DNA from: Thiohalobacter sp.
Lineage (GTDB): Bacteria > Pseudomonadota > Gammaproteobacteria > Thiohalobacterales > Thiohalobacteraceae
NCBI RefSeq assembly: GCF_027000115.1
Contig: NZ_JALTON010000048.1
Coordinates: 1 to 40,549, forward strand
Direction: 5' to 3'
DNA length: 40,549 bases
A program made the translations under genes and the position numbers. Below the pieces are notes generated by a model. The model had not been told where the DNA came from. It was given only the letters and a program-made list of their open reading frames with translations, and searched no databases. Below, one piece after another: positions 6,725 through 40,537 of the stretch (positions are counted from its first letter, which is position 1; each line of letters begins with the position of its first letter).

Positions 6725-7816
<1,092 letters not shown>

Positions 7817-7821
7817 GAGGA

Positions 7822-7988
7822 ATGGATGGCCACGGAATCCACTGAATGAATCCACCGAATGCGTTTCGGGTGCAGGATGGACAATCCATGACAGCCACAG
7901 CCGGTGTGCCCCCGAGTCAGGGTGTCCGGTCGAGCACCTGCCTGACAGCGAGTTTGCCGTGGGTGCAGTGGATCCCGTGGCCATCCAT
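7822..7988. repeat. Inverted-repeat mini-element inserted between pheS and pheT
   Basis: A 23-bp terminal sequence at 7822-7844 (core GGCCACGGAATCCACTG) is repeated in inverse at 7966-7988 with one mismatch, enclosing a 121-bp interior with no gene. The same core word recurs at 39793-39809 upstream of mfd. The shape is that of a non-autonomous, MITE-like element. A small inner hairpin (atgga/tccat) is also visible. Confidence 0.8.
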
Positions 7989-8012: not shown

Positions 8013-10391
8013 ATGAAATTCAGCGAACAATGGCTCCGCGAGTGGGTAAACCCGCCGATCGACACCCGGGAACTGGCCGAGCGCCTGACCATGGCGGGGC
8101 TGGAGGTGGACAGCGTCGAGCCGGCGGCACCGGACTTCGAACAGGTGGTGGTGGCAGAGGTGCTGGAGGTATCGCCGCACCCGGACGCCGACAAGCTCCG
8201 GGTCTGCCGCGTCGATGACGGCAGCGGCGAGCCGCTGCAGATCGTGTGCGGGGCGCCGAACGTGCGCGCCGGCATGAAGGCGCCGCTGGCGCGGGTCGGG
8301 GGCGTCATGCCCGGCGGCATGAAGATCCGGCGCGCGAAACTGCGCGGGGTGGAATCCTTCGGCATGCTCTGCTCGGCACGTGAGCTGGGCCTGTCCGAGG
8401 ACCATGCCGGGCTGATGGACCTGCCTGCGGATGCCCCGGTCGGCCAGGACATCCGCGATTACCTGCAGCTCGACGATGCCCTGATCGACGTCGACCTCAC
8501 GCCCAACCGCGCCGACTGCCTCGGCATTCTCGGCATCGCCCGCGAGGTCGGCGCCCTGACCCGGTCGCCGGTCACCGTGCCGCGGATGGACGAGGTGCCC
8601 GCAGCCATCGCCGATGTCTTTGCCGTGGAAGTCAAGGAACCGGCCGCCTGTCCGCGCTATCTCGGCCGTGTGATCCGCGGGGTGAATCCCGAGGCGCCGA
8701 CGCCGCTGTGGATGCAGGAACGCCTGCGCCGCAGCGGCCTCCGTTCGCTGGGCCCGCTGGTCGATGTCACCAACTATGTGCTGCTGGAACTGGGCCAGCC
8801 CATGCATGCCTTCGACCTCGCCCGGCTGGAAGGCGCCATCCACGTCCGCAATGCGCTGCCGGGCGAACGGCTGGTACTCCTCGACGAACGCGAGGTGACA
8901 CTGGATACGGATACCCTGGTGATCGCCGATGCCCGCCAGGCGCTGGCCATCGCCGGCGTCATGGGGGGCGAGGCCTCGGGCTGCAGCGACCGCACCCGCG
9001 ACGTCTTTCTGGAATGCGCCTTCTTCACCCCCGAGCGGCTGGCCGGTGTCGCCCGCCGCTACGGGCTGCAGACCGATGCCTCCTACCGCTTCGAGCGCGG
9101 CGTTGATCCCTGGCTGCAGCGGCAGGCAATGGAACGCGCCACCCGGCTGCTGCTCGACATCGCCGGGGGCGAGGCCGGCCCGGTGGAGGCGGTCACCCGC
9201 GCGGACTTCCTGCCCGAGCGGGCGGCCATTCACCTGCGCGCGCCCCGTATCGGGCGGCTTCTGGGCCTGGACATGCCCCGCGACGAGGTCGAGGACATCC
9301 TCGGCCGTCTTGGCTGCAGCCTGGAGCCCCTGGCCGACGGCTGGCGGGTGACGCCGCCCGGTTTCCGCTTCGACATGGCCATCGAGGCCGATCTGATCGA
9401 GGAGCTGGGCCGCGTCCATGGCTACGACCGGCTGCCGGAGCGCACGCCGACCGGGGTGCTTGGCCTGAAGTCAGCCAGCGAGACCCGGCTGCCACGGGAG
9501 CGCCTCCGGGCCACGCTGGTGGACCGGGGCTACCGGGAGGCAATCACCTACAGCTTCATCGATCCCGAGCTGGCTGCCGCCTTCGACCCCGACCACACCC
9601 CGGTCGCACTCGCTAACCCCATTTCCTCGGAGATGGCGGTGATGCGCAGCAGCCTCTGGCCGGGCCTGGCCGGCGTGCTGCGGCACAACCTCAACCGCCA
9701 GCAGGAACGGGTTCGCATCTTTGAGTCCGGTCTCAACTTTATTTCTCAAGATAATGAAATAAAACAGATTGGATACCTCGGCGTCATGGCCTGCGGCAGT
9801 CGCTGTCCGGAACAGTGGGGGGTGCCGTCGGAGCCGATCGACTTCCACGATGTCAAGGGCGATGTCGAGGCCCTGCTGGCCCTGACCGGGCGCGCCGCAG
9901 ACTTCGAATTCCGTCCCGATCGCCATCCGGCGCTGCATCCGGGGCGCTGCGCGCGTATCCTCGAAGACGGGCGGCCGGTCGGCTGGATCGGGAGCCTGCA
10001 CCCGGCGCTCGCCGGTCGTCTCGACCTGCCGGCGAACACCCAGCTGGCCGAGATCGAACTGGCGGCTCTGGAATCGGCGCGGCCGGCGCGATTCGCGCCC
10101 ATTTCCCGCTTTCCGGCGCTGCGTCGGGACCTGGCCGTGGTGGTCGACGCGACCGTTCCCTGGGGCGAAATCCGCCGCGTGGTGAGTGAGGCCGGGGGCG
10201 AAACACTCAAGGAAACCCGCCTGTTTGACGTATACATGGGGCAGGGGGTAGAAAAGGGACGTAAAAGCATAGCGTTAGGCTTGATTCTTCAAGATTCCTC
10301 ACGCACACTTACTGACCAGGACATCGAGAGTGTCGTTTCCCGCGTGACCGCGGCACTCAGGGAGCAACTCGGGGCTAGTCTGAGAGAGTGA
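8013..10391 (+). CDS. pheT: Phenylalanine--tRNA ligase beta subunit
   Basis: Structural and editing subunit of PheRS, 792 aa (E. coli 795). It begins MKFSEQWLREWVNP, the standard start. An EMAP/tRNA-binding fold follows (about 40-150), then the B3/B4 editing domain (about 210-370, with TNYVLLELGQPMHAFD), the B5 domain (about 400-475), the catalytic-like core, and the C-terminal ferredoxin-like anticodon-binding domain (about 700-792, with RFPALRRDLAVVVD). Two stretches (9721-9775 and 10202-10320) are markedly AT-richer and use codons rare elsewhere in the window. They may hold promoters for ihfA. The ribosome binding site is weak. ihfA follows after 3 bases. Confidence 0.97.
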   Translation: MKFSEQWLREWVNPPIDTRELAERLTMAGLEVDSVEPAAPDFEQVVVAEVLEVSPHPDADKLRVCRVDDGSGEPLQIVCGAPNVRAGMKAPLARVGGVMPGGMKIRRAKLRGVESFGMLCSARELGLSEDHAGLMDLPADAPVGQDIRDYLQLDDALIDVDLTPNRADCLGILGIAREVGALTRSPVTVPRMDEVPAAIADVFAVEVKEPAACPRYLGRVIRGVNPEAPTPLWMQERLRRSGLRSLGPLVDVTNYVLLELGQPMHAFDLARLEGAIHVRNALPGERLVLLDEREVTLDTDTLVIADARQALAIAGVMGGEASGCSDRTRDVFLECAFFTPERLAGVARRYGLQTDASYRFERGVDPWLQRQAMERATRLLLDIAGGEAGPVEAVTRADFLPERAAIHLRAPRIGRLLGLDMPRDEVEDILGRLGCSLEPLADGWRVTPPGFRFDMAIEADLIEELGRVHGYDRLPERTPTGVLGLKSASETRLPRERLRATLVDRGYREAITYSFIDPELAAAFDPDHTPVALANPISSEMAVMRSSLWPGLAGVLRHNLNRQQERVRIFESGLNFISQDNEIKQIGYLGVMACGSRCPEQWGVPSEPIDFHDVKGDVEALLALTGRAADFEFRPDRHPALHPGRCARILEDGRPVGWIGSLHPALAGRLDLPANTQLAEIELAALESARPARFAPISRFPALRRDLAVVVDATVPWGEIRRVVSEAGGETLKETRLFDVYMGQGVEKGRKSIALGLILQDSSRTLTDQDIESVVSRVTAALREQLGASLRE
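10225..10254 (+). promoter_or_regulatory. Possible ihfA promoter inside pheT
   Basis: TTGACG (10225-10230) and TAGAAA (10249-10254) with an 18-bp spacer lie in an AT-rich patch at the 3' end of pheT, about 140 bp before ihfA. E. coli ihfA also has a promoter inside pheT. The -10 match is only moderate. Confidence 0.3.
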
Positions 10392-39690: not shown

Positions 39691-39792
39691 CGGGTTCGGT
39701 TCGGGGCAAAGGCCGTATTTTCCCACAGCGCGACCGCCCACGCACCCGCGTCCATGGTCCTGTTCGGAGTGGACTTCAGGGTTGAACGGGCT

Positions 39793-39815
39793 GGCCACGG
39801 AATCCACTGCATCCA
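39793..39815. repeat. Solo end of the GGCCACGGAATCCACTG repeat family
   Basis: The 17-bp word is identical to 7828-7844 and is followed by a second ATCCACGG unit. Only one arm is seen, so this is a fragment or a solo unit, not a complete element. Confidence 0.7.
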
Positions 39816-39915
39816 CGGAAAGGAAGACTGTGAAAGCGCATGTCACAGCAGGATCGGCGGCCGCCGCAGCCTGTCCCCTCACGCCTGACTCGCGACTTCC
39901 CCCGCATCCCTCAAA

Positions 39916-39947
39916 CAGAAAGGCCCCGCCGAAGCGGGGCCTTTCTG
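39916..39947. terminator. Bidirectional hairpin terminator downstream of dsrE2
   Basis: A perfect 14-bp stem CAGAAAGGCCCCGC / GCGGGGCCTTTCTG with loop CGAA. Reading on the minus strand the stem ends in TTTCTGTTT, placed 18 bases after the dsrE2 stop at 39965. Confidence 0.85.
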
Positions 39948-39964
39948 GGTGGGAAGCACCCGCC

Positions 39965-40537
39965 TCAGATGAACAGGCACACGTCCGACTTCCTCGCCAC
40001 CGGCAGAAAGTAGGTCGCGCCCACATAGTCCACGCCATCGATGAACTCGTCATGACTGAAGCCGAACACGTCCACCGTCATCTGGCAGGCATACATCTTC
40101 ACCTCCGCCTCGATGCACAGGTCCCGCAGCTCCTCCACCGTCGCCACGCCCTTGTTCTTGAACGTCTTCTTCATCAGCGACGTGGCCACCTTCTCGAACC
40201 CCGGTATGCCCGCCATGATCAGGTTCGGCATCGGCCAGGAAATGTTCTGGAACCACTTGGGACCAAACGGCATCTTCATCGGCATCGCCGGGTTGCCCAG
40301 CGGGCTCACCTCGCAGGGAATCTCCTTCTTCAGCAGCAGCAACCCATAGAAGGTGAAGAAAACGCTCGTCTCCCACCCCAGCGCGGCCGCCGTCGAGGCC
40401 AGAATGAAGGGCGGATACGCCCAGTCCAGCGTGCCCTTGGTCGCAATGATCGACATCGCCGGAATCTGCGACTCCTCGATCGCCTCCAGCTTCGAAGGCA
40501 GCAGTTCGTCCAGCTTCTGGTTCAGCCACTGGTCCAT
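39965..40537 (-). CDS. dsrE2: DsrE2-type sulfur-relay protein (5' end at window edge)
   Basis: DsrE2 proteins are membrane-linked sulfur carriers found near tusA and rhodanese genes in sulfur oxidisers. The visible protein is 190 aa from ATG 40535-40537. It contains MSIIATKGTLDWAYPPFIL, a hydrophobic stretch TAAALGWETSVFFTFYGLLL, NPAMPMKMPFGPKWFQ, and the cysteine motif EVKMYACQMTVDVFG (Cys151). It ends DVCLFI. The frame stays open to the window edge (PNEQ before the ATG), and homologues often begin a few residues earlier, so the true start may be outside. The natural partners tusA and a rhodanese gene would be expected just to the right. A hairpin terminator follows its stop. Confidence 0.87.
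   Translation of the reverse strand: MDQWLNQKLDELLPSKLEAIEESQIPAMSIIATKGTLDWAYPPFILASTAAALGWETSVFFTFYGLLLLKKEIPCEVSPLGNPAMPMKMPFGPKWFQNISWPMPNLIMAGIPGFEKVATSLMKKTFKNKGVATVEELRDLCIEAEVKMYACQMTVDVFGFSHDEFIDGVDYVGATYFLPVARKSDVCLFI

Follow-up and report, generated by a model that had tools for sequence, protein, structure and literature searches.

Why pheS and pheT, two genes that usually lie nearly end to end, should stand 196 nt apart in a Thiohalobacter genome, and what occupies the space between them, are the questions raised by this locus. The window, by which we mean the whole stretch of DNA that was analysed, comprises 40,549 nt of contig NZ_JALTON010000048.1 and belongs to a genome of 2.65 Mb in 63 contigs (G000). 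A preliminary description of the gap had seen in it a mobile mini-element that settled inside an essential operon. The features of the window that bear on this are as follows.

6797-7816, plus strand: pheS, the upstream gene, intact (TIGR00468, E 7.5e-109; stop codon at 7814-7816)
7822-7988, no strand: hairpin element with inverted arms (from arm pairing, shuffles and RNA fold)
7822-7860, plus strand: left arm, ATGGATGG followed by the nonamers CCACGGAAT (7830-7838) and CCACTGAAT (7839-7847), then GAAT (7848-7851) and CCACCGAAT (7852-7860)
7861-7956, no strand: loop of 96 nt, no gene, without a match elsewhere in the genome
7957-7988, minus strand: right arm, reading on that strand ATGGATGG, CCACGGGAT (7972-7980), CCACTGCAC (7963-7971) and CCACGG (7957-7962)
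8013-10391, plus strand: pheT, the downstream gene, intact (TIGR00472, E 1.3e-254)
39787-39812, plus strand: single arm of the same element family, upstream of mfd, with no inverted partner seen

The hairpin in the pheS-pheT gap

Both flanking genes match NCBIfam equivalogs, and most of the gap between them is filled by a 167-bp unit whose ends, 7822-7844 on the plus strand and 7966-7988 on the minus strand, match at 22 of 23 positions, just as first described. The arm pair can be extended to 32 nt (7813-7844/7966-7997) at 84% complementarity. Each arm is made of iterated units of approximately 9 bp, such as CCACGGAAT; in the period test lag 9 was the best lag of the right arm (16/24) and shared first place with lag 13 in the left (15/24). 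The plus-strand RNA of the element folds at -87.4 kcal/mol (z -4.65), a value equalled by none of 200 shuffles, and 21 of the 23 arm positions pair across to the other arm. With up to three mismatches the 23-mer occurs at three places in the window, compared with 0.00 expected from shuffles. The third of these, at 39787-39809, lies upstream of the minus-strand gene mfd and includes an exact 17-mer (39793-39809), which bears out the reported recurrence of the core end word before mfd. Approximately 260 bp at 39729-39988, including this arm, are 95% identical to the end of another contig (G000:C35:4090-4354); on the mfd side a longer duplicated stretch takes in one arm of the family.

The usual close spacing of the two genes holds among relatives: the gap could be read at 109 related loci, and it is shorter than 60 nt at 71 of them and longer at 38. 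Within the family the gap could be read in seven genomes, and in six of them (G000, G001, G002, G003, G004 and G006) a hairpin with nonamer arms lies between pheS and pheT; the 27-nt gap of G005 is empty of any hairpin. The arm words in the gap differ between genomes, reading CCACGAAAT in G001 and CGCAGAGGC in G006, and these two members of one genus also carry different REP-like inserts in the loop. Similar gap hairpins were recognised by reading in L061 (a Thiohalobacter sp. MAG), L100, L111, L126 and G045 (L148). In 10 of 11 pheS-pheT rows the best partner of the left arm is the right arm of its own locus, the exception being G003. Since the arms pair best within their own locus while the words differ, either the site has been re-occupied or the words turn over with pairing kept. 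No orthologous empty site near enough for alignment occurs among the genomes compared.

A regulatory RNA specific to pheST, either an attenuator or a hairpin that sets the ratio of the two products, would suit the very stable fold and the presence of some hairpin in so many gaps of the family. We regard it as very improbable, given that words and loops vary between genomes, that the G005 gap is empty and that copies occur genome-wide; nor does the element contain an intrinsic terminator (a short stem rich in GC with a run of T after it), a match to a sigma-70 promoter pattern or a match to Rfam at E 1. A gap conserved in all relatives, with no copies elsewhere, had been named as the sign of a gene-specific element; instead, the gap is empty in G005, the words differ in G001, G002, G003, G004 and G006, and copies are many.

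Dispersed copies and known mobile repeats

A search of the whole G000 genome with the 17-mer GGCCACGGAATCCACTG, at up to three mismatches, gave 109 sites (54+55) compared with 21 (9+12) for the reversed pattern, and BLAST of the whole pheST unit, with E values as high as 10 accepted, gave 70 matches, nearly all on the arms and not the loop. The sequence examined in this genome contained 33 inverted pairs, so that the search for end pairs proposed at the outset found them in number there. A typical copy consists of ATGGCCACGGAATCCACTGAATCCACGGAAA, a loop and the reverse complement of ATGGCCACGGAATCCACTGAATCCACGGAAA, and tandem copies were seen on contigs C28 and C39. Sorted with a crude ORF caller by the orientation of the adjoining genes, 13 of the pairs are codirectional, 10 convergent, none divergent and 10 unassigned; the lack of divergent gene pairs among the 23 assigned comes with no background rate, and significance is not claimed for it. 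Sampled copies mostly have no related interiors besides nested REPs and short stretches near the arms, and none of them has an interior that matches the pheST loop. In 400-kb samples, inverted nonamer pairs numbered 5 in G000, 19 in G001 and 11 in G004, and heptamer pairs 1, 2 and 1, respectively. That the pheST unit is a member of a dispersed element, and not specific to pheST, is close to certain.

Two other repeat families were noted in passing. One, of approximately 262 bp with ends CTAGCCCGCATATTGCACCAGG, has three copies in the sampled stretches (L265 16588-16849, L268 13306-13567 and L279 17384-17645); the other, in G004, consists of units of approximately 270 bp with inverted ends of 33-36 bp (TACTAAGACAAACGATAACAAAGCCTCATTCAG), with several occurrences (L304, L306 and L322).

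The mobile mini-element of the preliminary description thus survives in part. The unit is dispersed, intergenic and non-coding, lies inside an essential operon and has many copies, and like a MITE it is gene-less with terminal inverted repeats. The classical MITE form does not hold, as loops are mostly unshared with no common core, no DDE transposase is shown and the target duplication that was to be looked for is not seen: at the pheST copy, a search within 0-5 nt of the ends gave no exact direct repeats 3-10 nt long, and no direct repeat of at least 3 nt flanks it. The same lack of a duplication, together with the unshared loops and with arms that co-vary while words differ between loci, would accord with a reading in which nothing moves, tandem units arising by slippage and template switching from arm to arm maintaining their likeness. 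One word of approximately 30 nt at many unlinked places in a genome needs copying between places, however, and we give this reading almost no weight.

Another candidate is a REPIN, two inverse REPs moved by the RAYT of the genome. The outline is alike, with short inverted ends, a variable spacer, an extragenic position and many copies (PMC3116915), and with dispersal, a less conserved spacer and a non-autonomous nature (PMC3116915, PMC3733652); the genome does have a RAYT gene (NF047646). Yet the one Y1_Tnp gene found (Y1/RAYT-type, PF01797; G000:C58:26551-26886, L030) is flanked by a different repeat, GATGGGCA.../...TTTGCCCATCCTAC, and within five substitutions its locus has one match to the pheST word, with five mismatches, in an upstream coding region. 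The pheST arms also lack GTAG or CGTC at an end and have no palindromic unit with these tags of the kind described in PMC3733652; the rare tag variant GTGG mentioned there does occur on their minus strand. A REPIN is consequently improbable here, and mobilisation by RAYT was dropped as a lead on the ground that the repeat beside the PF01797 gene found differs from the pheST word. The REP family GATGGGCA/TTTGCCCATCCTAC around the RAYT gene recurs in the sampled stretches L264, L269, L270 and L280.

A third likeness is to the intervening sequence (IVS) of 23S rRNA. The IVS of Coxiella burnetii encodes S23p, has tandem heptamers and bears a terminal stem of 28 bp, which RNase III cuts (PMC4990558). 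In common with the pheST element, the inverted ends of this IVS form a long stem; its loop holds a small ORF or none, the tandem heptamers lie beside the ORF, and the host RNA is tolerated as RNase III removes the stem (PMC4990558). Unlike an IVS, which sits in 23S rRNA and carries S23p, the pheST element lies between two mRNA genes, has nonamer arms and is gene-less. It behaves like a REPIN or a MITE and resembles a gene-less IVS, but in each case it fails defining features that were put to the test.

GxxExxY genes between inverted arms

The preliminary description had proposed a search for a transposase with matching ends. No ordinary one was found, the Y1/RAYT gene having another repeat; matching inverted arms were found instead around genes for GxxExxY proteins (TIGR04256, PF13366). 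G000 has two such genes, one of which splits accB and accC between arms GCGCCACGGAATACACGGAAGGCACGGAA... and their inverse, while the other splits trpE and trpG and has arms ACGCAAAGACGCGAAGGCGCGGAGGACGC. The words of the accBC element (GCCACGGAATACACGG) and the pheST element (GCCACGGAATCCACTG) are alike but of different subfamilies, and no gene-bearing copy with the exact pheST subfamily word was seen in G000. Gene-bearing arms in G004 read GGCCACGGAATCCACGGAA, near the word of the window, and in G001 a word of approximately 30 nt is common to the accBC element, which bears the gene, and to copies without one.

The association was measured in a class sample of 229 genomes, 35 of which have GxxExxY; 31 loci were examined of 49 places listed. 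For the arm score, the 200 nt upstream of a gene were aligned with the reverse-complemented 250 nt downstream of it, and the threshold was set at 30. This was reached at 24 of 31 GxxExxY loci, with a median of 40, or at 23 of 30 if the near-identical L178 and L188, from one genus, are counted once; the other seven of the 31 genes did not reach it. Cross-locus pairs scored a median of 17 and a 99th percentile of 43. By the same measure, control genes for ParE toxins had arms in none of 30 cases and control pheS genes in 4 of 109; three or more of those four loci have a hairpin in the gap. The strict period test was passed by 9/31 upstream and 8/31 downstream flanks, mostly at lags 8-9; passes are less frequent than for the four-helix-bundle genes described below because unit spacing varies. 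GxxExxY genes are associated with nonamer arms.

GxxExxY also occurs in eight plasmid records, of which four were read, and in viral contigs, three of which were found by profile and none by the first protein query. Among seven plasmid or viral-contig loci, four have arms (L344 from Bacteroides finegoldii, L347, L348 and L349) and three score below threshold (L343, L345 and L346). The viral contigs L347 and L348 (approximately 1370-1900) have GxxExxY with the same neighbour genes and different arm words, and in both a full hairpin stands upstream of the GxxExxY gene with a third arm downstream. In L345, a Sphingomonas parapaucimobilis plasmid record in which arms are below threshold, GxxExxY lies between fabD and fabG, in a housekeeping operon.

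At the accBC locus, GxxExxY separates accB from accC in G000, G001, G004, G006 and G009, five of the eight family genomes in which the gap could be read. In G002 the gap holds nonamer arms but no GxxExxY gene, and in G010 (87 nt) and G005 (23 nt) it holds neither arms nor gene. An element common to five family genomes is therefore likely to be old and kept at that place, and from its distribution the gene-bearing accBC element reads as vertically inherited and not freshly mobile.

The GxxExxY protein matches PF13366, a PD-(D/E)XK nuclease family, with E 3.6e-40. Residues E28, E77, K79 and Q91 are kept in all 31 proteins, so that the E-x-K of the PD-(D/E)XK site (E77-x-K79) is invariant, and D67 is at least 90% conserved. 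A predicted model (pLDDT 70) matches restriction-like folds weakly, with Z up to 7.3 and none reaching 8, and fold comparison recovers the broad restriction-endonuclease-like arrangement only. A profile search for relatives in the PDB gave one unconvincing match (E 0.14), and the top Foldseek hit of the model, an R2 retrotransposon protein, was not significant (E 0.06).

Our preferred reading, to which we give a probability of roughly 55%, is that the pheST unit is a copy, lacking a gene, of a hairpin class with arms of approximately 9-bp units, the gene-bearing forms of which carry GxxExxY and come to lie between genes, on repeated occasions within housekeeping operons. Taken by itself, membership of the same class as the GxxExxY elements is probable: both have inverted arms of approximately 9-bp units and both lie inside housekeeping operons. 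The pheST copy differs in having no gene and a 96-nt loop, and is filed as a presumed gene-less form. GxxExxY, or machinery to which it belongs, may copy or insert the hairpin formed by the arms, and gene-less copies could be spread in trans by the GxxExxY protein or by whatever moves the GxxExxY elements. That GxxExxY moved the pheST element itself is a possibility we put a little below even. In the pheST transcript, 7822-7988 would fold to a long stem that is a plausible substrate for RNase III, and the chances that it is cut there seem evenly balanced; translation of pheS and pheT would then proceed either on two RNA pieces or on a single tolerant transcript. The copy may be tolerated because it lies between reading frames and because its stem would be cuttable by RNase III, in parallel to the 23S rRNA IVS, which that enzyme cuts. 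A class of this kind offers a possible explanation for puzzling hairpins that have inserted between essential genes, pheS and pheT being one case, and suggests a little-known kind of selfish DNA.

Heptamer arms and four-helix-bundle genes

A second small gene family is accompanied by arms of another period. Genes of the four-helix-bundle, S23p family (TIGR02436) occur in 42 of the 229 class genomes, and 24 of 31 such loci have inverted heptamer arms at threshold. Their upstream flanks are periodic in 28 of 31 cases, always at lags 7 or 14, compared with 0 of 30 for ParE. G000 has one such gene (L173), with an arm score of only 21, downstream of a gene that we take to be rpsI.

The TAACTGA heptamers of Beggiatoaceae (PMC4679880) may be related; neither 'S23' nor 'four helix' occurs in that paper. 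Lists of genes at CRISPR-cas loci have included S23p genes, one example lying between cmr3 and cmr2 (PMC3936711). In open-access PubMed Central we found no paper that connects such arms with either of the two gene families, a result that leaves their absence from the literature unproven.

As a tentative extension, there may be two parallel classes of mobile hairpin in which arm period is matched to a small protein, approximately 9 bp for the nuclease-like GxxExxY and 7 bp for S23p, the four-helix-bundle protein related to Avd. On this view the 23S rRNA IVS would belong to the second class, as its representative resident in rRNA. Both would survive in or between essential genes because their RNA stem can be cut out or tolerated, and their proteins would have been mistaken for partners of the operons that the elements interrupt. 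Environmental genomes commonly contain GxxExxY and S23p genes, which have no known function; the tie of each family to its own arm repeat makes recognition of those repeats a candidate role, suggests a mobile-element reading and advises caution against function inferred from gene neighbourhood, as with S23p genes in CRISPR-cas lists.

The S23p family is related to the accessory protein Avd of DGRs (PMC10053308). This relation, and the non-significant R2 retrotransposon hit of the GxxExxY model, would fit copying of the hairpin RNA by a reverse transcriptase. No RVT_1 match was present in 7 of 17 genomes searched, however, including G004 and G074, which are both very rich in nonamers; a requirement for reverse transcriptase is unsupported, and the idea is about as improbable as any considered here.

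The main rival to our preferred reading is that other machinery spreads the hairpins, GxxExxY and four-helix-bundle genes being cargo captured in their loops. Both families are found between arms, and REPs too are nested in loops, as in G001 and G006 at pheS-pheT. The counts over the 229 class genomes were made with a degenerate nonamer pattern that covers some words only, so that they are lower bounds, and kinship was ignored in the comparisons. The excess of nonamers over the reversed control has a median of 16 in the 35 genomes with GxxExxY and -3 in the 194 others (p 1.6e-12, kinship ignored). Nonetheless, 18 of those 35 are not nonamer-rich, and 12 of 29 nonamer-rich genomes are without GxxExxY. 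Again with kinship ignored, 17 of the 29 have GxxExxY, 17 have four-helix-bundle genes and 5 have neither; the link of nonamer richness with four-helix-bundle genes is about as strong as that with GxxExxY, and a correlation with either family is what cargo would give. Random cargo would not be expected to have its own arm type per family, heptamers upstream of four-helix-bundle genes in 28 of 31 cases and approximate nonamers around GxxExxY, and we hold this alternative to be unlikely, though the strongest of those set against our preferred reading. At the loci L203-L232, four-helix-bundle/S23p genes stand amid inverted heptamer repeats whose word differs at most loci.
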